Shown piece by piece: positions 1 through 24,305 of a DNA stretch of 64,000 bases. This DNA comes from Tetradesmus obliquus (lineage: Eukaryota > Chlorophyta > Chlorophyceae > Sphaeropleales > Scenedesmaceae), in assembly GCA_030272155.1 (NCBI GenBank), contig CP126201.1, forward strand, positions 2,888,501-2,952,500, written 5' to 3'. Made by a program: the position numbers and the translations under genes. The notes below the pieces were generated by a model that did not search any database, was not told where the DNA came from, and was given only the letters and a program-made list of their open reading frames with translations. Position 1 is the stretch's first letter; every line of letters starts with the position of its first letter.

Positions 1-371
1 AGGTGCAAGTTGCTTGCTGGGCTGTGTGATGCATCAAGACATGGAGCAGCTGCAAGATTGCACCTACACCATGTGCTGCCACAGGTACCTGCTGCTGGCA
101 GCCATGATCATTGCCTCTTGCAAGGCAGGCAGCAGTGAAGACCTCTATGCATGCTCACTTGCCACTTCCACACAGCAGGTGAGTGATCCGCAGGAATGCA
201 AATCAACTGCAGCTGCTGCTCCCCTCCCTTGCCAGGGGCACTGGCGCTGCTGTGAACACTTCGATTGTCAGACCACTCAATCCAGTCACTGTAACTGTCA
301 GGCCACTGAACCCAGGTTTCAGCCGCAGAGCCCCGCCTGCACCTGATGCAGCCACTCCGCCTCCACTTTAG

Positions 372-1451
372 TCAATGTCTCCAGCGCCATGCTGCTGCTG
401 CTGCTGCTCTCACAGGGCTGCAGCACATGCAAAATGCTGCTGATCCTGCCGCTGAACACTCCTGCGTCTTGCGCTGCAGCTGCAGGGGCTGGGCAAGGTC
501 ACGCGCAGCATTATGATAGAAACGGCCAAACACGAAGTCGCCTTCAAAGCGCTCCACGCGAAATAGCCAAACCAGGTGGGTGCTGTTGCTGCTCTTGTTG
601 CTGCTGAGGCTGCTCTTGCTGCTGCACTTGTTGCTGCTGCTGCTGCTGCCGCCAGAGGCACCTGCATCCTCAGCAGCAGCAGCAGCTGCTGCTGCTGCTG
701 ATGCCACCTTGAAGCTGGCTGGGTCGCACATGTTCTTCTTGCTGGCTGCAACCTCCATAAACACGTGGTCGCCCAGCTGCACCCACTCACCCTCACCCTC
801 ATCCTCATCAAGCCACATCCCAGGCCGGCCATCAGATGATGTAGGGGGAGGCTTGTGCAGCCTGGGCTGCTTGCTGCTGCCTTCCTCTGCTGCTGCTGCT
901 GCTGCTGCCATGGCAGTGCCATGCTTGCGCTTCTTGCCTGTGCTGGTAGGCGCTGCTGCTGCTGCTGCCTCTGCTGCTGCTGTGGGGATGGCAGCAATGA
1001 TGCCACGCGCCGGCACGGCAAGCACCCTGATGCTGCTTGTGAGCGTCTGCAGGACAGCCGCAGGCACTGCAGCACCATCGCATGCTGCGGCATACAGCTG
1101 CTTGAGTCCCTGCTTGATGGCTGCTGCCACAGCTGGGTCTGCTCCAACCCTCAGCAGAGGGACCACTGCAGCTGCTGCATCAGCATGCGCTGCATCTGCC
1201 TCACTGCTCAATGCCATTGAAAGGTCTGACACTGCGTCCAGCACTGCAGTGATCATACTGCTGCTGCTGCTGCTGCTGCTCCTGCTGCTGCTGGCAACAG
1301 GATGGGCTGCCCCTGCTGGCTCCAGCAGCACTGGCGCTGGCGCTGCTGGCTGCTGCGGCTGCTGCAGTGCAGTGATTGCAACTGCAGCTGCGCTTGCAGC
1401 AGCACGCTGCTGTGGCCTTGCGCCATCCAGCTGCAGGGCGCCTGCAAACAT
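372..1451 (-). CDS. Family A protein, copy 1 (unassigned; C-terminus frameshifted)
   Basis: I do not recognise this family; four copies lie in this window. The frame is open to 1607, but that start lies inside gene B. The ATG at 1449-1451, 52 bp from the divergent start of gene B, is more likely. The protein has an Ala/Ser/Gln-rich N-terminus, a helical stretch (VVPLLRVGADPAVAAAIKQG), a basic NLS-like motif (GKKRKHG), then the best conserved part: SDGRPGMWLDEDEGEGEW, LGDHVFMEVAASKKN and HLVWLFRVERFEGDFVFGRF. The last block could be a BAH- or Tudor-like barrel, but that is only an impression. Compared with copy 3, one G is missing near 458, so the C-terminus changes from ELFSGRISSILHVLQ to a low-complexity tail ending at 372. 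Copies 1 and 2 share this lesion. Confidence 0.6.
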   Translation of the reverse strand: MFAGALQLDGARPQQRAAASAAAVAITALQQPQQPAAPAPVLLEPAGAAHPVASSSRSSSSSSSSMITAVLDAVSDLSMALSSEADAAHADAAAAVVPLLRVGADPAVAAAIKQGLKQLYAAACDGAAVPAAVLQTLTSSIRVLAVPARGIIAAIPTAAAEAAAAAAPTSTGKKRKHGTAMAAAAAAAEEGSSKQPRLHKPPPTSSDGRPGMWLDEDEGEGEWVQLGDHVFMEVAASKKNMCDPASFKVASAAAAAAAAAEDAGASGGSSSSSNKCSSKSSLSSNKSSNSTHLVWLFRVERFEGDFVFGRFYHNAARDLAQPLQLQRKTQECSAAGSAAFCMCCSPVRAAAAAAWRWRH

Positions 1452-1503
1452 GCAAGGGTGGCAGAAACAGGCATTTATATGTGGGTGCATTACATAACAA
1501 AGC
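1452..1503. promoter_or_regulatory. Divergent intergenic promoter between genes A and B
   Basis: Only 52 bp separate the likely ATG of family A (1451, minus) from the ATG of the resolvase gene (1504, plus). An AT-rich core, CATTTATATG, lies near 1473-1482. The same spacer occurs at 7303-7354 in unit 2. A shared bidirectional promoter is inferred from position; the sequence shows only the spacing and the TATA-like core. Confidence 0.4.
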
Positions 1504-2168
1504 ATGCTACGCAGCACCCCCAAGCCTCCTAAAAAGTGTTGTCTGTCCATAGACCCTGGCACGCAGAATGCTGGCGTGTGCGCTTTTGACAGCACCACCC
1601 AAACCATAGTCTATTGGACCCGACACAAACTGCTTGATGTACATGAGCAGGTGATCCGAAGCACAGATCAGGTGAAGCGCTATCTGGACTCAATCACAAA
1701 CAATGTAACAGCTGCACTGAAATCTGATGAATTTTGGGTGTTAGTTGAAGACCAACCCTGGGACTCCGATAGTAAGAAATGCATTGTGTTCAACTTGCAA
1801 CTGCAGCAGGCCATTGCTATGTACCACCTGTGCCAGGGCAAAACAGTGCGGGTGCTAAGTGCCAGCGAGCGCTACAAGTTCCTCGGGATCAAAAACTGGC
1901 AGCAGATGACTCGGCACTTCCGCAAAGTGAGTACAGCAAACGCTGTGCGCCAGCTGTTGGAGGCAGGCGATGGCAATGCGTTTGCAGGCGGAACCATGAC
2001 TTCAGGATGTGACAGGCAGCACGAGAGTCACAGCACGACATGGCAGACGCCTTGGGCCAGCTGCTGTGCTATTTTTTACAGAAACAGAGACGCAGTAAAG
2101 GATGGCAGGGTGGTGGAAGCAGAGCTCACCAACAAGCTGGTTGTCCCTGTGTCAGCAACAAGCAGTGC

Positions 2169-2200
<32 letters not shown>

Positions 2201-2568
2201 CAGCAGCCCTGAGACACAACCGTGGCGGCGGCAGCGGCAGCGGCGGCGCAGGGCCTTCCCAGAAGAAGGCGAAGCATGACAGCGCAGCCCGGCACATCCA
2301 AGCCAGGGCGCTGCTGCAAAAGACACTCACGCAGCTGCAGGCAGAACACCCAGAGCTGCTGCCACGCGCGCAAGGCTCAGCGCAGCAGCAGAGCAGCAAC
2401 GCAGAGAAGCTGTACAAAGTGTATCAGACCCACAGAAACAGCAAAACCCTGCAGGAATTCTTAAAGTACCTCAGCAACTACAACCAGAAAGGAACCAACC
2501 TGCAAAATGTAAAAAATTTCAATGCCAGGTTGTCTCACCTATTGCAGCCGCCGCGCGCTCCTCCGTGA
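1504..2568 (+). CDS. RuvC/poxvirus A22-like Holliday junction resolvase, copy 1
   Basis: The RNase H-fold resolvase signature is visible. Strand 1 with the first catalytic Asp is LSIDPGTQNAGVCAF (residues 13-27), the catalytic Glu is in VLVEDQPWDSDSKK, and VRVLSASERYKFLGI follows. The third catalytic motif, HDMADALGQLLCYFLQ, lies in another frame at 2034-2081. Removing 1927-2033 (GTGAGT...CACAG, 107 bp, phase 0) joins FRK directly to HDMADALGQ and gives a 222-aa protein ending at 2279 with a basic tail, a size close to viral A22-type enzymes. That splice deletes VSTANAVRQLLEAG, which itself resembles the helix preceding this motif in the family. A small frameshift near 2013-2033 is therefore the alternative. 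The unspliced 354-aa frame carries a Gln run and a Lys/Gln-rich tail. Such enzymes cleave four-way DNA junctions; in eukaryotes they are known from mitochondria and large DNA viruses. Confidence 0.6.
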
Positions 2569-5268
2569 AGGTGCTGTACAGGGCAGGGTAGGCGAAGCTG
2601 GCAGCGTCGCCACCAAACTTGCGGCCCAGCCTGTGGCTTGGCTGCTCCCAAAGCAGCAGGCTCTCACCAGGCGAGACATAGACATCACAAGGCTGCTTTG
2701 CCCAGTTGCCACTAAGTTGTCTGCCATCAGCAACAACAAACTCAGCAGCTACGCGCACTTGCACGCGCTGCTGCTGGCCGGCTTGCAGCAGCAGGCCTTC
2801 CTGGGTCATGAGCTGAGCCACAGTGTAGCGACTGTAGGTGGTGTTGCGGATGCTGCAGCTGCCACCCAGCGGCTTGGACAGCTGGCACCACAGCTTGCTG
2901 TTGGGGACCAGCAGAAGCAAGCCAGCACCACGCAGCAGCGTGATGGCGCCTGGCAATGTTGCTGCTGCTGCTGCTGCTGCTAGTGGCTCTACTGCTGACC
3001 CGGCTGACCCGCCTAGTCCCGCTGGCTCTGCTGCTGCGTGCACAAAGCACAAAGCTGGCCAGCATCACGTTTAGGACTATTGTCCAAACTGGCCAACTGC
3101 CGCTCGCACGCTGGTCTATGGCTGCACCGGCCACGGCCACCACAGCCTTGAAGATAAATTGGACAGTAGATGACAGCCTTGACGGCAGAGTGGCTGCATG
3201 CCATCAGTGCACCTTGAGGTGGCCAAATTGCACGACACCTTCTGCATGACAGAATGACACGCAATAAGAACACGTCCCTGTATGAACTTATGGGTCGCTT
3301 TCAACGAACAGCAAACAAAAGCGCACCAATGCATATGCTATGCATGCTATTGCCAGTTGATCACCAGTGCACAAACGCACCACATATTCATCGTGCACCC
3401 TTTTAGTTTTCCCTCCACAGAGATGCCGAAGGAATGATTATTATTATTTATTACAGGGATGCCGAGACATGGCATTGATGCTGTGGTTTTCGACTGATAG
3501 CATGAATATGCAGCTGCTATCCCCTAGGACATAACACACCCTCACCTTGCTGTAAAGCCGCAATCTGCTTTGACTGCTCGTCAATCTGCTGCTTCATCTG
3601 CTCCAGCTTCTCGTCAATGATCTCCTCCATGCTGACCATGCGGGAGTTGAAGGTGTTCCTGCCCAGTGCCTGGTTAGCAGCTGCAACCAGCGTGCGGCAC
3701 CACATATGCGTGTCAGCAGCACACCACCATGCAAAGCATGCCTGCTCGCTTGTTGCTATGTGTGCCAGCAACTGCATGCGCTAACGCACTTAGTAGCGGC
3801 ACTGAGCACTGGCCAACAAGGGCCAAGGCAACAAGCAGCATGCAATAACCACAACATACTGAAAAACCTCGACTCCCATCCCTGTGTCGCCCCAAACAAC
3901 ACAGAACTACACAAGATATACTCCTACCAGTCCCGCTTATGTAATTGCTGTTGATGGCTTAGCACATCAGCAACAGTTGGCAATGAATGACAGGATGTTG
4001 CTGCAAAGCCTGGGGCGTGCTGAGCTGCTGATATGAATCTGGACATTAAAGGACAGCACAAGGTGGAGCTGCTGGCCACGACGTCTTGTTATTGCACTGC
4101 AAAGGCCGCGGCAACAGGCAATGCACAAGGCGATAATCATTGCAGCAGCAGGTGAAGCATGCGTGCACATCGCACTAATGCAGCACACATAATATGCAAC
4201 ACTGCAGCTGTGTGGGGTTTCACAGCTGCTTTGCATGCATCAGCAGACAATGTAGCTTCGGCAGGCTTGCCACAAGCACCATCGCAAGCATATCAATAAC
4301 TCACCTGCTGTTGCTGCTGCTGCTGTGGGATGAGACAGAAGACAGGTGGGAGCCGTGAAGAGCACATGCAAGGACATGCAAACAGGGCGCTATTCAGCGA
4401 AGGGTCAAACAAAGAGGCTTGCAATATGAAAGCACAGGGGCATGCAGCACACAGGAGCACGCAGGATGGTGTTGCAGGGCTGCCTGTTGCGTTAGAAGTG
4501 TTCAAGCATGCCCCATGACACGGCTTTACAAGCACATTGTGAAATACGCCCTAGCAGAGCGCTGCTTGGTGGGCATGCGCAGCATGTGATAACCCAGCTT
4601 GTGCAATCAATAGATTGATAGACTAATCATGCTGCTGTGGCAGCTCAAGCTGCAGAAACCCCTTCCATGGGTCCAGCCAATATTCTTGCAGAAGGGTTTG
4701 CAGCAACTGCTGGCATGCACCACAGGCGGCGGCTGCATGCTAACATACCACCAATGCATGCAACTCCAGCGCACACCTGGTGCTGTTGTGGTGAAGCAGG
4801 GGCCGCCAAGGAATGGCAGATGATGGCGCATGCACGGGAGCAAGCAGGCCAGAGCAGGGCAGCGCAGGTCAACATCAGTGGCGTATGCAATCAGCATTAT
4901 GCATGCAGCATTCAGGAGTGCAGGATGGTAATGTGGCATTTGGGAGTGCAGAGGTGGGTGATACGGGCTTGCAGCACAAGACAATGCATGAATCGCCTGC
5001 TGCTGGTGTGGGATGATGGATTCAAGGGTGCTTGACAAGCGAACCTATGCATTCACCCACCTGTTGCCTGCTGCACAAGCTGCATGACCGCAGCCCGCCT
5101 CACATCCACCTCCCTCTCCATCAGGGTGGCACATGTCAGCACATTCAGATTGCCGACTGCAAGGATAGCGGCAGCTTGGATGTCCGGGCTCTGGCCAGCC
5201 AGCAACTGGCCCAAGCTGGCGAGCAGCTGTTCCTTCTTCAGCTGCTGCTGCTCTGCTACTGAAGCCAT
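2519..5268 (-). CDS. Gene C: coiled-coil protein, four exons, copy 1
   Basis: Unrecognised. Model: complement(2519..3033, 3546..3680, 4305..4322, 5061..5268), 876 nt, 291 aa. All three introns are phase 1 with GTGGGT, GTGAGT and GTGAGG donors. Exon 3 (counting from the 5' end) is 135 nt. Exon 2 is an 18-nt CAG-repeat microexon and is the least certain part. Visible order: MASVAEQQQLKKEQLLASLG start, a helical stretch with DIQAAAILAVGNLNVL, an Ala-rich linker, a clear coiled coil (SMEEIIDEKLEQMKQQIDEQ, then SKQIAAL), and a C-terminal region of about 145 residues with SIRNTTYSRYTVAQLM and AKQPCDVYVSPGESLLLWEQ. The 3' end overlaps the unspliced gene B frame by 50 bp in convergent orientation. 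Confidence 0.6.
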
Positions 5269-6234
5269 TGCGCCTTCTGCAGCACGAACAGGCCCATGCA
5301 TGAAGATTAGAAAGGCCTCTCGCCCCATTTCAATGCGTTTCGCTGCGTTGGGTAACACCACAAGGGACAATTGGCCCCTCCGTCGCGATGTGGCCATGTG
5401 GCATGAGAACACAAGATTGCAGTGCATGCAATGTTGTTGAAGAATACAGCGCCTGTTAAGCAAGAGCACCCGACGCACCTCGTTGCAGAACCAGCAGCCG
5501 TGCACGGACGTTTAAACACTCCAAATACGTCCTCCAGAAGCCGAACGCGCTGTCCTTGCGGGAACGTGAACGCCAGGCTTGATTTGACGCGAAACAAGTC
5601 TGGTTCCCTTTTGTGGAGGGGTTTTTTCCTTTCCTTACTTGTGCATCGAACGGACAGAAACATTTTGATAAGATGGTCACCTCCAGAGAGCCTTCTACAA
5701 TCAGACGAGATAACAAGCGAGGTTCTACGCCAAAGCTGCAATATCATAGCGCAAATAGGCTGTCGTAGGTATACATATACATAAGTAATCTTTATACACA
5801 GACATGCATGCAACCAGATGCAAACCAAAAAGCAGCAGCAGCTGCAGCTGCTGGAGCTATGCACTCACACAGAACTCGTTTGCCAACCTCTGCTGATGCA
5901 TCAAATAACTACCATGTTACAGACGTCAGCTGCAAGTTCCCCCTTGCAGCCCACATGGGACATGCATGCATTAAGGCCTACAGCAGCAGCAGCAGCAGTG
6001 AAGACCTCTATGCATGCTCACTTGCCACTTCCACACAGCAGGTGAGTGATCCGCAGGAATGCAAATCAACTGCAGCTGCTGCTCCCCTCCCTTGCCAGGG
6101 GCACTGGCGCTGCTGTGAACACTTCGATTGTCAGACCACTCAATCCAGTCACTGTAACTGTCAGGCCACTGAACCCAGGTTTCAGCCGCAGAGCCCCGCC
6201 TGCACCTGATGCAGCCACTCCGCCTCCACTTTAG

Positions 6235-7302
6235 TCAATGTCTCCAGCGCCATGCTGCTGCTGCTGCTGCTCTCACAGGGCTGCAGCACATGCAAAATGC
6301 TGCTGATCCTGCCGCTGAACACTCCTGCGTCTTGCGCTGCAGCTGCAGGGGCTGGGCAAGGTCACGCGCAGCATTATGATAGAAACGGCCAAACACGAAG
6401 TCGCCTTCAAAGCGCTCCACGCGAAATAGCCAAACCAGGTGGGTGCTGTTGCTGCTCTTGTTGCTGCTGAGGCTGCTCTTGCTGCTGCACTTGTTGCTGC
6501 TGCTGCTGCTGCCGCCAGAGGCACCTGCATCCTCAGCTGCTGCTGCTGCTGATGCCACCTTGAAGCTGGCTGGGTCGCACATGTTCTTCTTGCTGGCTGC
6601 AACCTCCATAAACACGTGGTCGCCCAGCTGCACCCACTCACCCTCACCCTCATCCTCATCAAGCCACATCCCAGGCCGGCCATCAGATGATGTAGGGGGA
6701 GGCTTGTGCAGCCTGGGCTGCTTGCTGCTGCCTTCCTCTGCTGCTGCTGCTGCTGCTGCCATGGCAGTGCCATGCTTGCGCTTCTTGCCTGTGCTGGTAG
6801 GCGCTGCTGCTGCTGCTGCCTCTGCTGCTGCTGTGGGGATGGCAGCAATGATGCCACGCGCCGGCACGGCAAGCACCCTGATGCTGCTTGTGAGCGTCTG
6901 CAGGACAGCCGCAGGCACTGCAGCACCATCGCATGCTGCGGCATACAGCTGCTTGAGTCCCTGCTTGATGGCTGCTGCCACAGCTGGGTCTGCTCCAACC
7001 CTCAGCAGAGGGACCACTGCAGCTGCTGCATCAGCATGCGCTGCATCTGCCTCACTGCTCAATGCCATTGAAAGGTCTGACACTGCGTCCAGCACTGCAG
7101 TGATCATACTGCTGCTGCTGCTGCTGCTGCTCCTGCTGCTGCTGGCAACAGGATGGGCTGCCCCTGCTGGCTCCAGCAGCACTGGCGCTGGCGCTGCTGG
7201 CTGCTGCGGCTGCTGCAGTGCAGTGATTGCAACTGCAGCTGCGCTTGCAGCAGCACGCTGCTGTGGCCTTGCGCCATCCAGCTGCAGGGCGCCTGCAAAC
7301 AT
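6235..7302 (-). CDS. Family A protein, copy 2 (unit 2)
   Basis: Same as copy 1 except for four fewer codons in the Ala tract before EDAGASGG, caused by the 12-bp CTG-tract difference. It has the same NLS-like GKKRKHG, the same SDGRPGMW and LGDHVFMEV blocks, and the same missing base relative to copy 3. The C-terminal frameshift therefore predates the tandem duplication. Start chosen at 7302 by analogy with 1451. Confidence 0.6.
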   Translation of the reverse strand: MFAGALQLDGARPQQRAAASAAAVAITALQQPQQPAAPAPVLLEPAGAAHPVASSSRSSSSSSSSMITAVLDAVSDLSMALSSEADAAHADAAAAVVPLLRVGADPAVAAAIKQGLKQLYAAACDGAAVPAAVLQTLTSSIRVLAVPARGIIAAIPTAAAEAAAAAAPTSTGKKRKHGTAMAAAAAAAEEGSSKQPRLHKPPPTSSDGRPGMWLDEDEGEGEWVQLGDHVFMEVAASKKNMCDPASFKVASAAAAAEDAGASGGSSSSSNKCSSKSSLSSNKSSNSTHLVWLFRVERFEGDFVFGRFYHNAARDLAQPLQLQRKTQECSAAGSAAFCMCCSPVRAAAAAAWRWRH

Positions 7303-7354
7303 GCAAGGGTGGCAGAAACAGGCATTTATATGTGGGTGCATTACATAACAAAGC

Positions 7355-8019
7355 ATGCTACGCAGCACCCCCAAGCCTCCTAAAAAGTGTTGTCTGTCCA
7401 TAGACCCTGGCACGCAGAATGCTGGCGTGTGCGCTTTTGACAGCACCACCCAAACCATAGTCTATTGGACCCGACACAAACTGCTTGATGTACATGAGCA
7501 GGTGATCCGAAGCACAGATCAGGTGAAGCGCTATCTGGACTCAATCACAAACAATGTAACAGCTGCACTGAAATCTGATGAATTTTGGGTGTTAGTTGAA
7601 GACCAACCCTGGGACTCCGATAGTAAGAAATGCATTGTGTTCAACTTGCAACTGCAGCAGGCCATTGCTATGTACCACCTGTGCCAGGGCAAAACAGTGC
7701 GGGTGCTAAGTGCCAGCGAGCGCTACAAGTTCCTCGGGATCAAAAACTGGCAGCAGATGACTCGGCACTTCCGCAAAGTGAGTACAGCAAACGCTGTGCG
7801 CCAGCTGTTGGAGGCAGGCGATGGCAATGCGTTTGCAGGCGGAACCATGACTTCAGGATGTGACAGGCAGCACGAGAGTCACAGCACGACATGGCAGACG
7901 CCTTGGGCCAGCTGCTGTGCTATTTTTTACAGAAACAGAGACGCAGTAAAGGATGGCAGGGTGGTGGAAGCAGAGCTCACCAACAAGCTGGTTGTCCCTG
8001 TGTCAGCAACAAGCAGTGC

Positions 8020-8051
<32 letters not shown>

Positions 8052-8419
8052 CAGCAGCCCTGAGACACAACCGTGGCGGCGGCAGCGGCAGCGGCGGCGC
8101 AGGGCCTTCCCAGAAGAAGGCGAAGCATGACAGCGCAGCCCGGCACATCCAAGCCAGGGCGCTGCTGCAAAAGACACTCACGCAGCTGCAGGCAGAACAC
8201 CCAGAGCTGCTGCCACGCGCGCAAGGCTCAGCGCAGCAGCAGAGCAGCAACGCAGAGAAGCTGTACAAAGTGTATCAGACCCACAGAAACAGCAAAACCC
8301 TGCAGGAATTCTTAAAGTACCTCAGCAACTACAACCAGAAAGGAACCAACCTGCAAAATGTAAAAAATTTCAATGCCAGGTTGTCTCACCTATTGCAGCC
8401 GCCGCGCGCTCCTCCGTGA
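7355..8419 (+). CDS. RuvC/poxvirus A22-like resolvase, copy 2
   Basis: Identical in translation to the gene at 1504-2568. The out-of-frame third catalytic motif sits at 7885-7932 and the candidate 107-bp intron at 7778-7884. Because both copies carry the same frame arrangement, it is not an isolated read error in one copy, although a collapsed or duplicated assembly would copy an error too. Confidence 0.6.
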
Positions 8420-11119
8420 AGGTGCTGTACAGGGCAGGGTAGGCGAAGCTGGCAGCGTCGCCACCAAACTTGCGGCCCAGCCTGTGGCTTGGCTGCTCCC
8501 AAAGCAGCAGGCTCTCACCAGGCGAGACATAGACATCACAAGGCTGCTTTGCCCAGTTGCCACTAAGTTGTCTGCCATCAGCAACAACAAACTCAGCAGC
8601 TACGCGCACTTGCACGCGCTGCTGCTGGCCGGCTTGCAGCAGCAGGCCTTCCTGGGTCATGAGCTGAGCCACAGTGTAGCGACTGTAGGTGGTGTTGCGG
8701 ATGCTGCAGCTGCCACCCAGCGGCTTGGACAGCTGGCACCACAGCTTGCTGTTGGGGACCAGCAGAAGCAAGCCAGCACCACGCAGCAGCGTGATGGCGC
8801 CTGGCAATGTTGCTGCTGCTGCTGCTGCTGCTAGTGGCTCTACTGCTGACCCGGCTGACCCGCCTAGTCCCGCTGGCTCTGCTGCTGCGTGCACAAAGCA
8901 CAAAGCTGGCCAGCATCACGTTTAGGACTATTGTCCAAACTGGCCAACTGCCGCTCGCACGCTGGTCTATGGCTGCACCGGCCACGGCCACCACAGCCTT
9001 GAAGATAAATTGGACAGTAGATGACAGCCTTGACGGCAGAGTGGCTGCATGCCATCAGTGCACCTTGAGGTGGCCAAATTGCACGACACCTTCTGCATGA
9101 CAGAATGACACGCAATAAGAACACGTCCCTGTATGAACTTATGGGTCGCTTTCAACGAACAGCAAACAAAAGCGCACCAATGCATATGCTATGCATGCTA
9201 TTGCCAGTTGATCACCAGTGCACAAACGCACCACATATTCATCGTGCACCCTTTTAGTTTTCCCTCCACAGAGATGCCGAAGGAATGATTATTATTATTT
9301 ATTACAGGGATGCCGAGACATGGCATTGATGCTGTGGTTTTCGACTGATAGCATGAATATGCAGCTGCTATCCCCTAGGACATAACACACCCTCACCTTG
9401 CTGTAAAGCCGCAATCTGCTTTGACTGCTCGTCAATCTGCTGCTTCATCTGCTCCAGCTTCTCGTCAATGATCTCCTCCATGCTGACCATGCGGGAGTTG
9501 AAGGTGTTCCTGCCCAGTGCCTGGTTAGCAGCTGCAACCAGCGTGCGGCACCACATATGCGTGTCAGCAGCACACAACCATGCAAAGCATGCCTGCTCGC
9601 TTGTTGCTATGTGTGCCAGCAACTGCATGCGCTAACGCACTTAGTAGCGGCACTGAGCACTGGCCAACAAGGGCCAAGGCAACAAGCAGCATGCAATAAC
9701 CACAACATACTGAAAAACCTCGACTCCCATCCCTGTGTCGCCCCAAACAACACAGAACTACACAAGATATACTCCTACCAGTCCCGCTTATGTAATTGCT
9801 GTTGATGGCTTAGCACATCAGCAACAGTTGGCAATGAATGACAGGATGTTGCTGCAAAGCCTGGGGCGTGCTGAGCTGCTGATATGAATCTGGACATTAA
9901 AGGACAGCACAAGGTGGAGCTGCTGGCCACGACGTCTTGTTATTGCACTGCAAAGGCCGCGGCAACAGGCAATGCACAAGGCGATAATCATTGCAGCAGC
10001 AGGTGAAGCATGCGTGCACATCGCACTAATGCAGCACACATAATATGCAACACTGCAGCTGTGTGGGGTTTCACAGCTGCTTTGCATGCATCAGCAGACA
10101 ATGTAGCTTCGGCAGGCTTGCCACAAGCACCATCGCAAGCATATCAATAACTCACCTGCTGTTGCTGCTGCTGCTGTGGGATGAGACAGAAGACAGGTGG
10201 GAGCCGTGAAGAGCACATGCAAGGACATGCAAACAGGGCGCTATTCAGCGAAGGGTCAAACAAAGAGGCTTGCAATATGAAAGCACAGGGGCATGCAGCA
10301 CACAGGAGCACGCAGGATGGTGTTGCAGGGCTGCCTGTTGCGTTAGAAGTGTTCAAGCATGCCCCATGACACGGCTTTACAAGCACATTGTGAAATACGC
10401 CCTAGCAGAGCGCTGCTTGGTGGGCATGCGCAGCATGTGATAACCCAGCTTGTGCAATCAATAGATTGATAGACTAATCATGCTGCTGTGGCAGCTCAAG
10501 CTGCAGAAACCCCTTCCATGGGTCCAGCCAATATTCTTGCAGAAGGGTTTGCAGCAACTGCTGGCATGCACCACAGGCGGCGGCTGCATGCTAACATACC
10601 ACCAATGCATGCAACTCCAGCGCACACCTGGTGCTGTTGTGGTGAAGCAGGGGCCGCCAAGGAATGGCAGATGATGGCGCATGCACGGGAGCAAGCAGGC
10701 CAGAGCAGGGCAGCGCAGGTCAACATCAGTGGCGTATGCAATCAGCATTATGCATGCAGCATTCAGGAGTGCAGGATGGTAATGTGGCATTTGGGAGTGC
10801 AGAGGTGGGTGATACGGGCTTGCAGCACAAGACAATGCATGAATCGCCTGCTGCTGGTGTGGGATGATGGATTCAAGGGTGCTTGACAAGCGAACCTATG
10901 CATTCACCCACCTGTTGCCTGCTGCACAAGCTGCATGACCGCAGCCCGCCTCACATCCACCTCCCTCTCCATCAGGGTGGCACATGTCAGCACATTCAGA
11001 TTGCCGACTGCAAGGATAGCGGCAGCTTGGATGTCCGGGCTCTGGCCAGCCAGCAACTGGCCCAAGCTGGCGAGCAGCTGTTCCTTCTTCAGCTGCTGCT
11101 GCTCTGCTACTGAAGCCAT
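8370..11119 (-). CDS. Gene C: coiled-coil protein, copy 2
   Basis: Copy of the 291-aa four-exon gene in unit 1, shifted by 5851: complement(8370..8884, 9397..9531, 10156..10173, 10912..11119). All exons are unchanged. The C-to-A difference at 9576 lies just upstream of exon 3, in the intron, so the predicted proteins are the same. Confidence 0.6.
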
Positions 11120-11831
11120 TGCGCCTTCTGCAGCACGAACAGGCCCATGCATGAAGATTAGAAAGGCCTCTCGCCCCATTTCAATGCGTTTCGCTGCGTT
11201 GGGTAACACCACAAGGGACAATTGGCCCCTCCGTCGCGATGTGGCCATGTGGCATGAGAACACAAGATTGCAGTGCATGCAATGTTGTTGAAGAATACAG
11301 CGCCTGTTAAGCAAGAGCACCCGACGCACCTCGTTGCAGAACCAGCAGCCGTGCACGGACGTTTAAACACTCCAAATACGTCCTCCAGAAGCCGAACGCG
11401 CTGTCCTTGCGGGAACGTGAACGCCAGGCTTGATTTGACGCGAAACAAGTCTGGTTCCCTTTTGTGGAGGGGTTTTTTCCTTTCCTTACTTGTGCATCGA
11501 ACGGACAGAAACATTTTGATAAGATGGTCACCTCCAGAGAGCCTTCTACAATCAGACGAGATAACAAGCGAGGTTCTACGTCAAAGCTGCAATATCATAG
11601 CGCAAATAGGCTGTCGTAGGTATACATATACATAAGTAATCTTTATACACAGACATGCATGCAACCAGATGCAAACCAAAAAGCAGCAGCAGCTGCAGCT
11701 GCTGGAGCTATGCACTCACACAGAACTCGTTTGCCAACCTCTGCTGATGCATCAAATAACTACCATGTTACAGACGTCAGCTGCAAGTTCCCCCTTGCAG
11801 CCCACATGGGACATGCATGCATTAAGGCCTA

Positions 11832-11839
11832 CAGCAGCA

Positions 11840-11897
<58 letters not shown>
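11832..11897. repeat. CAG/AGC microsatellite at the right end of unit 2
   Basis: About 60 bp of (CAG)n interrupted by AGA. This is where unit 2 stops matching unit 1; the equivalent shorter run in unit 1 (5983-5998) is the duplication joint. Downstream to about 12110 the sequence stays GCA-rich and encodes only low-complexity Ala/Gln frames. Confidence 0.85.
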
Positions 11898-11898
<1 letters not shown>

Positions 11899-12113
11899 TG
11901 CTGGAGGTGGTGGCAGCAGCTGCAGTGGTGGCATCAGCAGCACCTGCTGCAGTGGCACCACCAGCAGCAGCAGATGTCACAGCAGAAGCGCCTGCTGTAC
12001 AGGCAGCAGCGCCACAGGTTGCTGCACCTAATGAGGAGTCAGCATCAGGCAAGCGGCAGCTGTCACCAGCACTAGCAGCGGCAGCGTCAGATGCCAAGCG
12101 GCAGCATGTTTGA

Positions 12114-13743
12114 ATAGTTCTGTCTTGCAGCTGCACGCCAGTGTGACTGTTGTACCGCATCAAGTACTGCAGCTGTGCGGCACGGATGCTGGCTGCAGTT
12201 GCATTGTAGTAAAACGTACGCACTTCAACATGATGAAGCACAGCGTTGTCATCTCTTAACATCAAGCCGTGCTGCATGTCTGTAGGGGTGGGCGCTGCTG
12301 AATGCATGGAGTTGTTGTTTGTTCAGCAATGTGCTGTCAGTTGCTACGTCATGCAGATGTTCAAGGGTCTGCGTTCGGGCTTGATGCTTACATACTTGCG
12401 GCTGTGGTGACTTAGAAGGCTGGCGCTGTGCATGTTTGTCATGGTGCCAATGCCTGCAGGAAAGCTGCATCATTTTCATCAACACGCTTGATGGCTGTTG
12501 CATTACCCCACACAGCAGTGTTGTGATGGCCGATACGTTGCAGTCTATGCGAGCTCCCTCAAGACCTGGTGCATTGCATTGCACTGCCTATCATTATAGT
12601 ACACTAGTGTTGTTTGAGTCAAAGAGTTGTGAGCTTTAGGTTTGCTTATGGTGATCAGCTGCACCTGTGCAGTGACGCTAGCTGCATCTAGCTATGCACT
12701 TCAAGTGCCATGCTGTTGGCCAAGTGTGCATGCCAAGGAGCCGGCACCGACATGCATGTTGTTGGTTGAGTCGCAGTTGAGTTGCAACACAGTGTTGTGA
12801 TGGCCTATGTGTTGCGTGTGAGCTCTTACAATGTCTGGTGTGTGGCGCTGAGAGTGCTCAGGCTCGGCTTGGTGTCAACAGCTGGCAGGTCATGCTTTGG
12901 TGAGCCGCGGAGTTCTAGTGGGTGCAGTACTTCTTTCAGGCGCCCAGCTGCTTGCAAGCACTCATGGTGGTGGCGAGGTGAGCTGAGCTGCCCACACGCG
13001 GTGTGCCTTCAAGGCCATGGCTGAGGCTGAGCAGCTGCGGCCAGTTGCTGGCTGGCAGGCTTACAGCTGAGTGGCAGGTCAGGTGACTCATTGTGTCACA
13101 CATGTTGTTGTCGTCGAGATGCTGGTAACACCGCCGTGTGCTCACTGATGCTTGTGGCCAACCCCGCCTGCCGAAGGTGAACAGCCATGGTGTCACCCTG
13201 CAGCAGGTCGCTGCGCAACTAGCCAGCGTAAGGGCGTTCGGACGCTCCAAGCTCGTATATGCTGAATTTTAATGCTTTTGAGGCGCTGCTTCCTGCATTT
13301 GTGTGCCGGCGCCTGTCTTTGGCACATGAAACTGGTTTCTTCTCAGCTGGGCTGCACCTGCACCAGAGCGCCCGCCATGTGCTGCAATGCTTACATACGA
13401 GTGTTGTATGAATATTGCTAGCCATGTTAGAGCGATAGGTGGTTTGTCATGTAACTGCTTACTTTACGCACCACTCGCTGCCCAGCTGAGCCGAAGCCCA
13501 GCGCCCCCCAAGCACGTTCATGTCCGTCCACAGTTGCGTACTCAACATTTCGGCTCTTCAGCACAGCAGCACTCACAACTGATGCTGTCCAACCTTTGTC
13601 CCCTCAGTGCTCCTGAAGCCCCCATCATGCCTATGCTTTGCTGGGCTCTTAGACATTGTTGCCACACCATGCTATGCAAGTCGACACGACAGTCCTCCCG
13701 TGTAGCAGGATTGCACTGACATTCAAACAGTGTGCTAGTCACT

Positions 13744-13778
<35 letters not shown>

Positions 13779-15665
13779 GCAGCTGCTTCAGCGTGAATTG
13801 CTGTGCCAGCAGCTGCACGGGGGTCCGAGGTGAGAGGTCCACGCGCTCCTTGCCAAGGCAGCTGCATGCATTTGGGAGACACGCAGCAGGCAGGCAACTG
13901 TTGTGATTGCTGCATGCCAGTGCACGGCATTCCAAGGGTGACTCGAGCTTCGATTGCCCCGAGGTCAGCCATGATGCTGCAGCAGCTTGCTGCTGGGTGT
14001 GAAGCTCTGCAATTGCAACCGCTGCCTCGCAAGCATCACAACACTCGCACACGCGATGCATGCGACAGATGCATTGCAAGCCTTCTGGGTCTCAGTCATG
14101 TCCAGGCTGTTTTTGCTGTTGCTGCCTGTTACTGCTGCTGCTGCTGCTCCGCCACCCCTGAGGCTACTGCATGGAAGCAGCTAGCAACAGTCATGGAACA
14201 GCCAGGTTTGGCACGCTGTGCACTGCATTGCTTAAATAAGAAACAGAAAGGAATGCTTTTATACTGCACCCACCGGCAAGATGCATGACACCAGCTACAA
14301 CCATGGCAGCAGTAGCAAGCACAGACAAGCTCAACATGCAGTGTTGCGACTGTGCCTGCAGCGTACACAGACCTTTGCTCGCCATAGACGTTTGCATATT
14401 GTCAAGAGTCACTGTCGCCTGGCGCAAAACAGAGCATGTGCTTATGCTGCTGGCCTGTGTCAACCCATGCGTCTGTTGCTCACCATCAGACCCATCTCCC
14501 CCAGAATCAATATCTCAGAATGTACAAAATGATTCTTGATTCCCTGGGTTTGGAGCTGGTGCATGTGCTGCTGGGGGCGGGTGCTAAGGGGGCTAGGCTG
14601 GTCTGTGCCACAGCAGAAACCAGTTTCCTCAGCAGCGGGGTGTCATCCGCTTGTGTGGTCATGACAGAGCCTGCAGGTGAGTGCTGATGATCAACATATG
14701 CGTCATGGGGCGAACCTGTGCGTCTGCTGCTCATCACCCCTATGGAGCCACCAGACCCACCTCCCCCAGAATCAATATCTCTGAATGTAAAAATGATGAT
14801 TCTTGATTCCTTGGGTTTGGACCTGGTGCATGTGCTGCTGGGCGCGGGTGTTGGTGTTTGGCATGATGCCGCACCCAAGCAATTGAAGGAGGGCATGTCG
14901 AGTGTGGCCGGCAGTGCACCATGGGGCAAGCTCCGTCCCATGATGCTCCACTAGAGCAGAGATAGAGTGGTGTGCCGCACTGCTGCTGCAGGGGTGTGTG
15001 CTTGTAGTGGTGTGCCTTGCGTGGTCACAACTGTAGCCAAGTAGGACAAAAAGTGTCAGAGGGCCTGATGAGCAGTTGCATCGAACCAGGAATGCTTAAG
15101 ACCAATGTGGGCAGCGTCCTGTGCCACTTGGCTGGGGACAGGATGCCTCATCCCGAGGCCACCACATCTTGTCGTTTCGGACGCATTGAAATGCTTACGG
15201 ATATCATCGAATCTTTTTCTGGTGTCTTAGGGTGCCCTGGAGCGCCTTAGCAGCTCTGCAGGCGTAGGGTTGGAAACTGGTTTCCTAGCACTTTGCGCTC
15301 ACATGTAACAGATATCGCTGTAACACCGTTTGTTGCATATTTTATGTCGATTGATCAGGCACAAAGCGCCGTGCAGTCGGCTTCCGACCCTTTGGGCCTC
15401 TGCTGCACGTCCGTAGCTAAGCTGTCTCACGCGTGAGGGGTCTTTGAAACGGCCCGATATCAGCAATCACCGCAGCTCCACAAACTTCAAACCGTTCCAA
15501 CGTTGCTGCCTTCATCGACGCCCGCATGTGAAGCACTCTTCGGCCAAGGGTGAAAAAGCTCGACCTTTGCTGCACCATACCACTTGCCACAAACCAACAG
15601 CTGCGTGCAGCATAACATATGCCCCAGCCCAGCAGCAACCACTGCAGCATGAGTCATGCACATGC
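12114..15665. other. Spacer with no defensible gene
   Basis: About 3.5 kb without a long frame that has natural-looking composition. It holds a (CAG)n run at 13744-13772, a (CTG) run near 14130-14150, and one diverged direct repeat (14470/14720). No splice-consistent exon chain or known motif was found on either strand. Confidence 0.5.
14470..14857. repeat. Diverged direct repeat, about 125 bp, two copies
   Basis: Copies at about 14470-14590 and 14720-14857 share CCCCCAGAATCAATATCTC, a TTCTTGATTCC block and GGTGCATGTGCTGCTGGG, with substitutions and small indels. On the minus strand both encode a similar peptide (APSSTCT.SKP.ESRII) inside a frame at 14507-14941. I do not think that frame is a gene. 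Confidence 0.75.
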
Positions 15666-16747
15666 AGGTGCAAGTTGCTTGCTGGGCTGTGTGATGCATC
15701 AAGACATGGAGCAGCTGCAAGATTGCACCGACACCATGTGCTGCCACAGGTACCTGCTGCTGGCAGCCATGATCATTGCCTCTTGCAAGGCAGGCAGCAG
15801 TGAAGACCTCTATGCATGCTCACTTGCCACTTCCACACAGCAGGTGAGTGATCCGCAGGAATGCAAATCAACTGCAGCTGCTGCTCCCCTCCCTTGCCAG
15901 GGGCACTGGCGCTGCTGTGAACACTTCGATTGTCAGACCACTCAATCCAGTTACTGTAACTGTCAGGCCACTGAACCCAGGTATCAGCCGCAGAGCCCCG
16001 CCTGCACCTGATGCAGCCACTCCGCCTCCACTTTAGACAATGTCTCCAGCGCCATGCTGCTGCTGCTGCTGCTCTCACAGGGCTGCAGCACATGCAGAAT
16101 GCTGCTGATCCTGCCGCTGAACAGCTCCTGCGTCTTGCGCTGCAGCTGCAGGGGCTGGGCAAGGTCACGCGCAGCATTATGATAGAAACGGCCAAACACG
16201 AAGTCGCCTTCAAAGCGCTCCACGCGAAATAGCCAAACCAGGTGGGTGCTGTTGCTGCTCTTGTTGCTGCTGAGGCTGCTCTTGCTGCTGCGCTTGTTGC
16301 TGCTGCTGCTGCTGCCGCCAGAGGCACCTGCATCCTCAGCAGCAGCAGCTGCTGCTGCTGCTGCTGCTGATGCCACCTTGAAGCTGGCTGGGTCGCACAT
16401 GTTCTTCTTGCTGGCTGCAACCTCCATAAACACGTGGTCGCCCAGCTGCACCCACTCACCCTCACCCTCATCCTCATCAAGCCACATCCCAGGCGGGCCA
16501 TCAGATGATGTAGGGGGAGGCTTGTGCAGCCTGGGCTGCTTGCTGCTGCCTTCCTCTGCTGCTGCTGCTGCTGCTGCCATGGCAGTGCCATGCTTGCGCT
16601 TCTTGCCTGTGCTGGTAGGCGCTGCTGCTGCTGCTGCCCCTGCTGCTGCTGCTGCTGCTGTGGGGATGGCAGCAATGATGCCACGCGCCGGCACGGCAAG
16701 CACCCTGATGCTGCTTGTGAGCGTCTGCAGGACAGCCGCAGGCACTG
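15666..16747. repeat. Partial third copy of the unit's left end
   Basis: Matches window positions 1 to about 1067 with more divergence than units 1 and 2 show to each other: several substitutions, CTG-tract length changes and a one-base difference near 16124. Similarity stops abruptly at 16747, in the middle of the family-A coding region (right after the sequence encoding VPAAVLQ, read on the minus strand), where unrelated coding sequence begins. It contains only the 3' part of family A and none of genes B or C. Confidence 0.93.
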
Positions 16748-18308
16748 TTTCTGCCTGGCGCGAGCCCAGATACAAGTGCTGCGCCGTGGCCAGCAGAGCG
16801 AGTGCAGCCTGGTGCGCGCGGAACGCTGCACTTGTTGTGGCAAACTGCCCACCACTGGTCAAGCTGCTGGGGTGGAACCACATCGGGTGGCCGCTCTGCT
16901 TCAGGGCAAGCATTTGAGAACTGCAGGCAGAGCATGGTGCACAACGCGGCACAGTAAGCAGCAAGTACAGCCATGAGCCAGGTAGCTGCATTCAACTGCT
17001 GCTGATGCATGGCTACTGCAGGCCAGCTGGCAGCAGAGCAATTCACCAACATGGCACATGCAGCATTAGCTAAGTCGTTGCAGTCTAGGTGCTGGAGGGG
17101 ATGTTGCTCACTCAATCTGGGCCAGCGCTGACAGCAGTTCTGCCTGTAGGTACAGGACCTTCCCCACTGCAAAGTTGAAAGTTACTGGCATAGCCTTGAA
17201 CTGTGGCTTTGAAGTGCCTGCGACTGCTGCTGCTGCTTTCTTGCTGCTGCCAGGAGGCCGCCCACCCTGCAACAGCACCAACACACATGCAGACGTGCGG
17301 TGATGACATAGCCGTTCCATGTTATCACTGTCTGTGGTGGCTTGCTCATCTGAAAGCAAAAGCCTGAGGTATTCATCAAGGTACAGCACATGCACTCTGC
17401 ATGCACTGCAAGCTCATTGCATGCTCAGTAGGTTTTGTGCAGTGGAGGAGTTTCTGTAGGCTGTCCTGGTATGCACACAAGAGAGGGGCCACTGCTGAAA
17501 TTCACCTTCTTACCCCACCATGCATCAGGCGGGTGATGGTCCTAGAGTTGGCAGGGAAAGACAGGTCAACCTGCAAAGTATCATGAAAGTTAGAGATTGT
17601 GCAATGGCCACGGCTGCTGAGCAATTCTCGCACCACCCTATCAGCTCGTACCTGCAGCTGCTGTACCCTGCCATCAACATCCTTAAACTCAATGTGGCGC
17701 TTGCAGCTGACCTGCTCTTCTGATGGCAGGGCAAGAGTACGGCCCAGCCACAGTGCCAGCCTCAGCTCCTGCACAAACTGTGGTGTGCGTTAGCAGCAGC
17801 ACACCGTGATCAAAAGCTGTGTCCCAGCAGCAGGACCTACCTCGTCCTTCACACTGCTGGGGTGCAGCTCCAGCGACATGCCCGCAGCCAAGCTTGCACA
17901 AACCATAGACTCCCATTGCTGCAGGTCACCGTTCACAATCAAATCAAAGGCATCCACTCCAGCGTGTTGAGCCCTTTGCTGCAGGCACCGCAAAGCAGCA
18001 CGCTGGGCTGCACTGCTGATGCTGATGCTGATGCTGCTGCCAGGCAACCGCTGCAGTGGCTGCAGGCGCCTGACTAGAAGCCCTGCCATAGGAAACACTC
18101 TTGCAGACACTTTGCTGTGCGCAGCAGCCACATCCTGCGGGTCTGCAGCTGAGGTGATACTGCTGCTGAAGGCTGCACACATAAAAAGCACAGACAGGCG
18201 CGTTCAGCACGTCTGTAGCCAAACGAGGCAGGCTATAACTGGCAAATGTATGATAACTATTCGCAAATCACCTTGAACACCAGGGCGCTTCTGCACAGCA
18301 AGCAGCAT
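15984..18308 (-). CDS. Gene D: chimeric protein ending in a family-A C-terminal half
   Basis: Model: complement(15984..16920, 17112..17266, 17514..17777, 17841..18172, 18272..18308), 1725 nt, 574 aa. Phases close at every junction (donors GTGATT, GTAGGT, GTAAGA, GTGAGC). The start MLLAVQKRPGVQ is a 12-codon first exon. Exons 2-4 encode an unrecognised region including GVDAFDLIVNGDLQQWESMV, QELRLALWLGRTLALP, a SCKRHIEFKDVDGRVQQLQV stretch and PQFKAMPVTFNFAVGK. The last exon starts with ALKQSGHPMWFHPSS and switches at 16747 into family A (VPAAVLQTLTSS onward), including GKKRKHG, LGDHVFMEV and HLVWLFRVERFEG. Here the family-A C-terminus is unshifted (ELFSGRISSILHVLQPCE, then ETLSKVEAEWLHQVQ). 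It looks like a functional fusion made when the partial unit copy landed downstream of, or inside, this gene. Confidence 0.6.
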
Positions 18309-18914
18309 CGTGTGCTGCTCCTGCTGGCTTCTGCTTCTGCTCCTGCTGGCTGCTTGTGGCTCCCCTAGCTGCTTTCGGTTATTAAAAGTTGTTTATGCCC
18401 TTAAAGAGCTTCTATTATAGCTGTATTGCCAGTTGCGTCGCTGCTGTCACACGACAACACAGGCTGCGTCTGATGTCTTCGGTCTACGGCAGTCGCAGTT
18501 CGATCGCCTCTCCAAATGTCGTTACATTGATTGTGAAAGCACTTCAAGCGTTCCGTATGGAAAAGGGTAACTCCAGACTGTACAATCACGTTAAGCCCTA
18601 GCACTGGTAAGGCGGGGCAGCAATGGTACAGTCACCTACAACTCAATGCGAAAGCTGCTCAAACTCATGCATTAGATGCTAGCTCAATGCAGTAGATGCT
18701 ATCAGGGGCTAGCTGTGCAACATATGCACATTTAGTGCAATGGAGGCAGACAGTCATGCACTAGAGGCAATGCAATAGAGGCACACAGGGATGCAATAGA
18801 GGCACTCAGTGTGGGCCAGAGTGCTGAACCCTGATGCTGAACCCGCCTTGCCGTCCCAGCCAGAGAGTTACAAGCACAACGCGCCACTACCACCCCTGCT
18901 ACTATTGCAGCTGC
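18309..18914. other. Spacer between gene D and the nuclease-kinase gene
   Basis: About 600 bp. Positions 18655-18810 contain short degenerate repeats of a TGCA(T/A)TAGA(T/G)GC-like motif (GCATTAGATGC, GCAGTAGATGC, GCACTAGAGGC, GCAATAGAGGC). No gene is visible. Confidence 0.5.
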
Positions 18915-21900
18915 TCAACTGCTGCTATTCAGCAAGCAATCCAGCCGGTCCAGGTCCTGATCACAAGCCTGCTCATCAGCTGCACAACACGTCTCAAGGT
19001 CGCACACAACAACTTTGCCATCAATCAGTAGGAAGTTGCTGGCACGCACATCACCGTGTGCAAACCCAGCTTTGTGAAGACCCTTCAGGCATGCTTTAGC
19101 AGCAGTGCCATGCTGCTTCAGCAGCTGCGTGCTCAAGGGCTCGCCCAAGCTCAGTGCCAGCACAGGCACGCCGCTGTGTGGCAGCCGACCCAGCGCCAGC
19201 AGCTTGGGCATGCATACTCCCCACTTTGCCTGAAGCATCACATAGGCTGAAGCCTCTGCCACAAACGCCGACATGGCGTGGTGGTCCTTGACATTGAATG
19301 TCTTGAGTGCGGCAGGCGATCCATCTACCAAGCCCTGCAATGCAGTGTGAAATAGACAGCATAAGCCTTGATGGCCGGGCCACACAAACTGGAACAGGCA
19401 AAGTGGCCCAGCTAGGCACGTCCCATCCCATCTCAGATGCTCCTGAAGCAATGTCAGGCACACACATCCCAACGTTGCAACTGCTTGCTGCCACTTCCTG
19501 ATATGCTTGTATGCATGCTTGGGCCGATGGCGTTGATGCTATGGCTTAATGGGTAACATGATGATGATCATGTATGCATGCTTGGTGGTCCCCGCCCCCT
19601 CGGCGCCATGCCCTACCCCTGAACTGCCTGTGTATTTACCTTGAAGACACGGCGATTGCTGCTGCTGCTCAAACACATGCTGCTGCAGTCTGTGCAGCTG
19701 GATAGAACTGGCAGAGCTTCAACTGCCACTGCAGCTGAACTCCAGCTGGCAACACCTTCTGCCCAAGCCACTGCATCAAACTGGCCAGCACCATCATCGC
19801 TGCTACTGTTGTGGCTGCTGCTGCTACTGCTGTAGATTGGCAACAGCAAGCTGCTGGTGTCACTGTGGAGCTCCTCAGCAGCGTCACCCTCACCACCTGC
19901 CTGAAAGGGCTGCCATGCGACGCTGGTGCGGGGTGGCTGGCTGCGTGAAGGTGCTGGTCGCCACCCACCAAAGTGGGTGCCCAGCTGCACCTGCCTGCTG
20001 CCCAGCTGCACCTCGTATCCAGATCGGGGCGTGACAGGAACACCGGCCCTTGGCAGCTGCTGCTTGGCGTCATTGTGCCACAGCTGGTGCGCTCGGTGCA
20101 AAACATACAGGAACGCACCCAAAGGGGGCACATCTGTGCTGTCCCAGGGCCACTGCGACACCTGCAGTGTCTTGTTTCGCACATCATCAAGGCGGCGGCT
20201 GAACAGGAAGGTGGTGTGCCAGTTGCTGACCAGCAGCAGTGGGGCCTCATCCATGACCGCATCTCCATAAGCCTGCAGCAGGTGTTGTGATGCAGTACCA
20301 TGCGGCGCATACCATGTGAGCAGCAAGGAAAGGCGACACCCAGCCTAGCGGTAAGCCGCCATACACCAACATCTGTGCATATCGCTCCCTGCGTCCTCTC
20401 CCCCTCCCTCCCACCTCCTTCATGCCCTCGTTCACCACTGAGGGAAAGTGAAAGGCCACATACCAGCGGGCCCCAGCGCTCACCTGCTGGATGACCTTGG
20501 CCACAGATGGCCCCAGGTTCTCATCAGCCAGTGCAGCCTGCAGGGACATGTTGCCATCCAGCTTCAGCTGCCAGCTGCCTTTGACTTCAAACACACCAAG
20601 GACCAGCCTCGAGGCATCCGCATACACAGATGTGCCACACTTGCGCACCAGCATATCAGTGAATGAGGCTGACCGGCCGCTGCCACCATCAATATATTCT
20701 GTGCCTGTAGGTCAGAGTGAGCAGGTCAGGGGATAAGTGTTGGTTGCATGCGTGAGTCGCTCTTCAAAAAGTGACTCACAGCAAGGATATAAGCAGGAAC
20801 ACGTGCATGAGCAGCCGTCGCTCCAGCAGTGGCACACGACCGGACAGCATGGTACACAGCATCATGGCAAACAACTGCCTCTGGTGGCCATGCAAACCCA
20901 CCCACCAATGCCCAGGTCAGCTGCCACCTCGCTCACGCCCTCCACGGCACGAATCAGACAAGCTCGCACATAGCTCTCGTCTGCAGCACCATTTAACATG
21001 ACCTCTGGCTCGCCTTGGGTCGCAGTCGCCCGGTAGACCTGGGTGCGAGGCAGGCGGACATGGGAGGCGGGAGGGAAGTGTCAAGGGCATGGGCATACCG
21101 CACAAACATGTGATGTCTTGTACCACACGAGCACACATGCGCACGCATGCACGCAAGCACACCTTTGTGCGTGCACACACATACACACACCACTTGGTAA
21201 GGCTGTGCTCTCAGCGCACACCCATGAAGAACACTGTTACAAACACTGTTACAAACACAACTTTGAGGCTTGCAGCATCACCAGGACCAACCTCTGCTTT
21301 GATGTGTGTTATTGATGCAACTTTCACAAGCAAATTGCTTTACTTGCAGCCAGCCAATCAAGCCAGGAGCCAACCATCCCAACCACAACATGTGCCTTTC
21401 TGCAATCACCAGTTTGTTGTACTTCTTGGGGCCTTCAGGCAGCCTGTGCACAAACTCATTCACTTTGTTGACAAAGCCAGGCATCTCCTCTATGCCGTCA
21501 AACGTGCGGGCGTGGCGTGGTTGTGTCATGGATGAGGATGCGCGGTCTGAGGTGCGGCGCGGCATGCGAGGCAGCGGCTGCATGATGTACTCCTTTGCTG
21601 AGAGGAGCCCTGCCAAAGACAGCGATGATAAGCACGCAGCACAGCACATTCCACACCGCAGCATGCATCATCAACACGGACACAAGCAGGCATCGTGTGC
21701 ATTGAACGGGTTGCATGCATGCAGCAAAGCACTTGCTACAGCACCATCGGAAAAAAACATAGCAACACCAGGTTGTCCACCAGGGGCCATGCAGGGTGCT
21801 GCTGCACACCCTTGAGTGAGCACCAAAGTTGAGCAACCGTGGCTGGCATGTTGCATGTGGTGATGCATGCAGCACTTGTAATGGCTAAGACTGCTTCTGC

Positions 21901-23112: not shown

Positions 23113-24305
23113 TCACAGCAGGAGCAGCAGCAGCAGCAAGAAGCTGAGCAGATGCAGCAAGCAGCCACTGCAGCAGCAGCAGAAGCAGATGTGCTGCAGC
23201 AGCAGCCAACTGGAGGGGAAGAGCAGCTGCAACGCGGCACAATCGTTGCTGCACAGCTTGCTGCCAGCATGCGTGTCTGCTATGTCCCTTGATAAGCTCT
23301 GCAAGGAGGCGCGCACTGTGGAAATTGTGAAGCAGCGCAAGGACGTGAAGCAAAAGGAGGCAGGAAAACTGGGCGATGACACAAAGAGGAAGCGGGGCAG
23401 CAAAGCAGCTTCCAGGGGCAGCACTTCAGAATAAATGCAGCGCCTGAGAAGTGTGTATGCCTTGTTGTGATCTGCTGGGGCACGTGACAGCCCAGCAGCC
23501 CGTCCATGCACGCAGTTGTCCTCCACGCGCTCCACACGAAACATCCAAACCAAATGCTGCATGTTACTGTTGCTGCTGTTGCTGCCGCTGCTGCCAGAGG
23601 CGCCACCTGCATCCTGTGCAGCAACCGCAACAGCTGCCACTTTGAAGCTTGCTTTGTCACGCACGTTTTTTGCTCTGCACTCCACCTCCATGAAGACATG
23701 GTCGCCCAGCTGGACCCAGTACTCATTGTCATCAAGCCAGATGCCAGGCCGGCCATCAGATGATGCAGGTGGGGGCTTCTGCACCTTTTGCTTTTTGTTG
23801 CTGCCTTGCTCTGTTGCTGCTGCTGCTACCATGGCGCTGCCATAACTTCGCTTTCTTGCTGTGTTAGGTGCTGCTGCTGCTGCCGCCATGGCGCTGCCAT
23901 AACTGCGCTTTCTGGCGGTGCTAGGTGCTGCTGCTGCTGCCGCCATGGCGCTGCCATAACTGCGCTTTCTGGCGGTGCTAGGTGCTGCTGCTGCTGCCGC
24001 CATGGCGCTGCCATAACTGCGCTTTCTGGCGGTGCTAGGTGCTGCTGCTGCTGCCGCCATGGCGCTGCCATAACTGCGCTTTCTGGCTGTGCTAGGTGCT
24101 GCTGCTGCTATAGGGATGACAGCAGTGGTGCCACATGCTGGCACAACAAGCGCCCTGAGGCTGCTTGTAACTGTCTGCAGGACATCTGCAGGCACTGAAG
24201 CACCCTCGCATGCTGCCGCATACAGCAGCTTGAGCCCCTGCTTGATGGCTGCTGCCACAGCTGGCTCTGCCAGCCTCAGCAAGGGGACCACGGCAGCTGT
24301 TGCAG
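23113..24305 (-). pseudogene. Family A, copy 4 (5'-truncated, internal NLS repeat)
   Basis: Homologous to copies 1-3 from AVVPLLRLAEPAVAAAIKQG onward: LLYAAACEGASVPADVLQTV, SDGRPGIWLDDNEYWVQLGD, HVFMEV and HLVWMFRVERVEDN. It is more diverged than the others. The single GKKRKHG block is replaced by five tandem copies of a 19-residue unit (STARKRSYGSAMAAAAAAP). After VERVEDN the reading continues into sequence without similarity to the other copies. At the 5' side, similarity stops near 24305, where a remnant of an unrelated gene begins. No independent start codon with support was found, so I treat it as a truncated copy; transcription from an upstream exon is possible. Confidence 0.6.
23816..24100. 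repeat. 57-bp coding minisatellite, five units
   Basis: Five head-to-tail 57-bp units within family A copy 4. Units 2-5 are almost identical. Unit 1 has several substitutions and the last carries a T in CTGGCTGTG. On the minus strand each encodes an ARKRSYG basic motif followed by an Ala run. The other three family members have only one such unit. Confidence 0.9.

Follow-up and report, generated by a model that had tools for sequence, protein, structure and literature searches.

The 64,000-nucleotide stretch of the Tetradesmus obliquus genome analysed here (the window; C11:2888501-2952500) carries near its left end a doubled and damaged copy of a multi-gene cassette, which we read, with a probability of roughly 0.5, as a likely mobile cassette built around a predicted RuvC-type nuclease (protein B), accompanied by protein A, which likely binds chromatin, and by two further proteins (C and D). 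Judged by sequence comparison, the cassette belongs to a dispersed family without a family name that has so far been encountered only in T. obliquus and in unassigned metagenome and database records. No description of this cassette came up among the listings in our paper-library searches, which does not prove its absence from the literature. The resolvase superfamily itself is already known, and it is the multicopy arrangement and the chromatin-reader-like partner in at least one paralogue that appear to be new.

To follow the family beyond the window, the whole genome (104,662,953 bases in 17 contigs) was searched in six frames with protein B. This gave 28 matches, which we merged into 21 places on 9 of the 17 contigs (C1, C4, C6, C7, C8, C10, C11, C13, and C15). 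In the flanks examined, A-like coding sequence was found beside B at 18 of the 21 places and was absent at three short fragments on C10. C converges on B at 18 places as well (it is missing at two C4 places and at the C1 fragment), and at 17 of them the B and C matches run into each other at their 3' ends. The exception is C7:1220670, where the B match stops early. D was found at 15 of the 21 places, 0 to 2.5 kb past the matched part of C and on the same strand as C; it is missing from both window units, one C4 place, C1, and C7:1220670. D lies in the opposite orientation at C10:130780, is present without C at C4:39145, and is counted on a weak match (25.5 bits) at C7:1274646. Gene order and orientation are conserved, with A and B diverging and with C and D converging on B. 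Because A, C, and D recurrently adjoin B across the 21 places, we conclude that a conserved cassette exists. The linkage of A, B, and C that the initial annotation had proposed from the window is thus borne out elsewhere in the genome, where the three were found together in 15 of the 21 places. Most copies are broken, and a stop-free frame over most of B that includes its motif was seen only at C6:4911630 and C7:2089701. Pieces of C, D, or the adjoining tail repeat also occur without B. On C10 (4041855-4062037), fragments of C and D are mirrored, without B, in an arrangement that resembles an inverted duplication.

The same annotation had suggested a mobile module not yet named. The dispersal and the lack of a family name hold, but with A, B, and C all damaged, the window units could not function as a three-gene module. 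We nonetheless favor mobility for the family, given its dispersal, its decay, and the near-identical cassette copies that occupy distant places in the genome, as is usual for cut-and-paste DNA transposons. The main rival is a host gene family with a nuclear DNA-repair or chromatin function, multiplied by tandem and segmental duplication and with copies that repeatedly decay, and we consider it possible. It is the main rival because, in the two young pairs inspected at their edges (C15/C6 and C8/C8), no inverted termini or target duplications were seen by eye, and no common end was found among the cassette copies, which stop at different points as segmental duplications would. The true ends may, however, lie elsewhere than in these pairs: the C15/C6 pair ends on the right simply where the C15 copy breaks off, as the tail continues in 7 of the 8 other copies examined (in the eighth, on C11, the match was partial), and the left edge of the C8/C8 pair falls inside the tail repeat. 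A host family would also be in keeping with the close spacing of at least two B places on each of C4, C6, C7, C8, C10, and C11, with the array structure, with duplications that carry neighboring tail repeats along, and with the constraint on B between lineages. It fits less well with 21 places on 9 contigs, many of them dead copies, with the coexistence of several ancient lineages, and with near-identical copies that lie far apart. Pfam scans of the A, B, C, and D sequences revealed no transposase domain.

With regard to selection, the dN/dS comparisons indicate that B evolved under constraint, with past purifying selection between lineages. The ratios among near-identical B copies range from 0.67 to 3.8 and rest on few changes, and most pairs that involve the most distant lineages are saturated. 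Three A pairs gave values of 0.34-0.54, and the C remnant of the window gave 0.26-0.36 against four close copies and 0.46-0.61 against three distant ones.

Within the window (Table 1), the tandem duplication reported in the initial annotation is present in the assembled sequence as a direct repeat of two nearly identical 5.86-kb units. Their alignment has 5848 identical columns out of 5869, with 2 mismatches and 19 gap columns; a single CAG-repeat difference accounts for 12 of the gap columns, and the other 7 sit at the CAG edge. The joint between the units falls within CAG repeats, as had been noted, and the outer edges of the doubling carry a short CAG stretch on the left (about 126-135) and a long one on the right (about 11832-11895). 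A partial extra copy was also correctly recognized nearby (15794-16747), and a fourth A-like ORF follows farther downstream (copy 4).

The proposed unit length of 5.85 kb agrees with this repeat, but it describes a shortened form of the cassette. Against a copy on C8, about 4.9 kb is missing from the window units at 3038/3040, and D and most of C are gone with it. In addition, the sequence directly left of the window (L044) repeats window positions 10064-15665 at 97% and the spacer portion 11850-15665 at 99%, which places the array spacing on C11 at about 15.7 kb. Similar pairs exist elsewhere, with two C8 copies 13.9 kb apart and two C7 copies 15.46 kb apart, the latter being 99.8% identical over the 3.8 kb compared. 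The simplest order of events that we infer would begin with a C11 array of about 15.7-kb spacing, in which one unit likely lost 4.9 kb internally; point damage would then have accumulated in the window lineage, and the 5.86-kb doubling would have come last, likely when the CAG run at the tail end and the short CAG stretch at the A-side start underwent unequal exchange. An assembly artefact, in which a single unit exists and was doubled by error, is improbable: the 99.97% identity of the units outside the repeat difference would be compatible with it, but two point differences and the 12-bp repeat difference separate them, and a further array in the genome, that of the C7 copies, behaves alike.

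Table 1. Features of the cassette copies in the window (positions are counted from the first base of the window).
Feature	Position	Strand	Basis and remarks
Unit 1 of tandem duplication	about 130..5991		Differs from unit 2 by 2 mismatches and a 12-bp CAG-repeat gap
Gene A, conserved coding part, unit 1	372..1454	-	GKKRKHG resembles an NLS by eye; end misframed; listed ORF 372-1607
Gene B, RuvC-type resolvase (predicted), unit 1	1504..2568	+	ORF; misframed at about 1985-2075, the catalytic HDxAD region
Gene C remnant (C-terminal 177 aa), unit 1	2519..3052	-	ORF; tail-to-tail overlap with B
Deletion joint, unit 1	3038..3040		About 4.9 kb absent relative to the C8 counterpart (rest of C, D)
Tail repeat with coiled-coil-like pieces (minus strand)	3040..5991		Parts recur on other contigs, also without B
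Duplication joint, CAG repeats	5980..5998		Alignment of units
Unit 2 of tandem duplication	5993..11849		Alignment with unit 1
Gene A, unit 2	6235..7305	-	Damage as in unit 1
Gene B, unit 2	7355..8419	+	ORF; translation and damage identical to unit 1
Gene C remnant, unit 2	8370..8903	-	ORF
Deletion joint, unit 2	8889..8891		Counterpart of unit 1 deletion joint
Spacer of larger array	11850..15793		First 3816 bases recur at 99% directly left of window
Copy 3, partial A fused to partial D; lacks B and C	15794..18475		Sequence comparison
Chimeric open frame, D joined to end of A	15984..16991	-	ORF; product of deletion in copy 3
Copy 4, lone A-like ORF with 57-bp tandem repeat	23113..24291	-	ORF and repeat detection

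The A and B frames originally listed are present in both units. In the window B, one-base length changes on both sides leave about 30 codons misframed while the frame stays open, and it is through this wrong reading frame that the HDxAD motif is lost in both units. The motif is retained in three B relatives (L015, L027, and P0004). The B family has a predicted RNase H-like RuvC fold. In an alignment of 31 rows, D188 and D191 are invariant and E84 is conserved in over 90%, and the first Asp lies in the consensus CLSIDxGxxN, which is invisible in rows without the N-terminus. The RuvC-like profile phrog_159 matches 23 of the 31 members at E <= 0.1 (best 2.1e-07). Comparison of predicted structures ended in a tie among TEFM, chloroplast MOC1, phage RuvC, and the fowlpox resolvase; TEFM, the top VIA row for B, is a non-nuclease that shares the RuvC-like fold. 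For comparison of B with organellar resolvases (MOC1, Cce1/Ydc2), the host genome was searched with the Pfam domains of RuvC and Ydc2, which gave no match to PF02075 (controls match in 8 of 14) and none to PF09159, for which the control genomes are silent too. At the N-terminus of B, residue 12 opens the first strand, and the rows that reach this region have a common MLR start, which leaves little room for a presequence, barring an upstream exon. With about 11 residues ahead of the fold, B would be nuclear rather than organellar.

Of the initial description of B as a RuvC/A22-like resolvase, the first half is upheld by the predicted RuvC fold and the phrog_159 match. The A22 assignment is not supported, as Pox_A22 (PF04848) reaches 12.3 bits against a cut-off of 22, with 3 of the 31 B members matching at E <= 0.5 (best E 0.16). 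The label "virus-type" likewise lacks support: Pox_A22 stays below its cut-off, the structures tie, and no B relatives were found in IMG/VR viral contigs by two profile scans, which reach only relatives with shared conserved peptides. Prokaryotic contigs yielded no relative either. An origin from a large DNA virus or virophage-like element that became endogenous and of which the resolvase module survives appears very improbable: the viral structure library gave 45 matches at E <= 0.001, which include RuvC-like proteins of algal and giant viruses (Pandoravirus, Feldmannia, and Pyramimonas orientalis virus), and the gene layout is compact and overlapping, but neither viral scan returned a relative, one A carries a PHD finger, and the genome has no match to the NCLDV capsid (PF04451) or DNA_pol_B_2 (PF03175), looked for as markers of a giant virus or Polinton-like element, the last being a weak point given that the control genomes are silent too.

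The NLS reported for A corresponds to a lysine-rich NLS-like patch recognized by eye. The last codons of A are misframed in units 1 and 2 and in frame in copy 3. A 52-bp promoter shared by A and B had also been proposed; the two genes do diverge, but the promoter is doubtful in view of what lies ahead of A. By eye, the conserved coding part of A starts just past a pyrimidine-rich stretch that ends in CAG and may represent a splice acceptor, which it resembles in sequence. The A paralogue at C7:2089701 (L026:2194-3207, plus strand) contains a PHD finger, with 30.3 bits against a Pfam cut-off of 24; none was detected in the 4 other A sequences scanned (1 positive of 5), the A of the window among them. 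A BAH-like look of other A proteins, noted by eye, was not supported by profile searches. In copy 4, positions 23815-24109 hold 5.2 copies of the 57-bp unit, which encode a basic NLS-like peptide (TARKRSYGSAM...).

Open frames for C span 398-527 aa in the majority of the other near copies, several of which contain internal stops. C had been described as a convergent coiled-coil protein, and its ORF does meet B tail to tail, but the coiled-coil-like pieces belong to the separate repeated tail. This tail looks like a repeat family of its own, since it occurs on C17, a contig without a B match. Between C6 (L045/L054) and C17 (L055, C17:2978000-2987999), the tail repeat with its coiled-coil ORFs is 91-98% identical. 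In the structural model of C, a beta domain at the C-terminus is predicted with confidence and matches barrels only weakly. Among the 7993 candidates that share most words and were scored, 21 were homologues of C; for D, 22 homologues were found among 7992 candidates scored, three of them with T. obliquus or Sobl393 names. A Pfam scan of D gave no domain above cut-off. Elsewhere in the window, an ORF at 18915-19472 (minus strand) has weak, sub-threshold kinase-like matches (Kdo, Pkinase), and a 43-bp tandem repeat occupies 54310-54571 (6.1 copies, 100% matches).

An intact B would cut branched four-way DNA with the help of metal ions, as its predicted fold and retained acidic residues suggest. 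A, with a PHD finger in one paralogue, would tether the nuclease to chromatin. On the mobile reading that we favor, self-copying or movement of the cassette would proceed via branched recombination intermediates that B resolves. The cassette is unlikely to found a class of its own among nuclear mobile elements of eukaryotes, with a stand-alone, chromatin-tethered RuvC-type recombinase that moves by junction resolution without terminal repeats or target duplications. In eukaryotes, RuvC-type resolvases have otherwise been described chiefly from organelles and viruses. A nuclear-looking, multicopy, selected family with constant neighbors points to a nuclear use of junction cutting that is as yet undescribed, by either a selfish element or a chromatin-linked repair system. 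T. obliquus is culturable, and PMC12571836 lists two assemblies of 17 contigs, the second being GCA_030272055.1, so that strain comparison could show whether the cassette is mobile.

When compared with known systems, the cassette resembles eukaryotic DNA transposons and large cargo-carrying elements in its dispersal, near-identical distant copies, old lineages, dead copies, and local arrays, but differs from DNA transposons in that inspection of the two pairs revealed neither terminal inverted repeats nor target duplications. The bacterial IS110/IS621 elements, with their RuvC-like (DEDD) recombinases, are another near system. With the RuvC, MOC1, and poxvirus resolvase superfamily, B shares the predicted RNase H-like fold with its D, E, and DxAD acidic residues. 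It differs from these resolvases in that it gives no match above a Pfam cut-off, has an extra C-terminal helical region (model residues 247-323), is multicopy, and is linked to A, C, and D.
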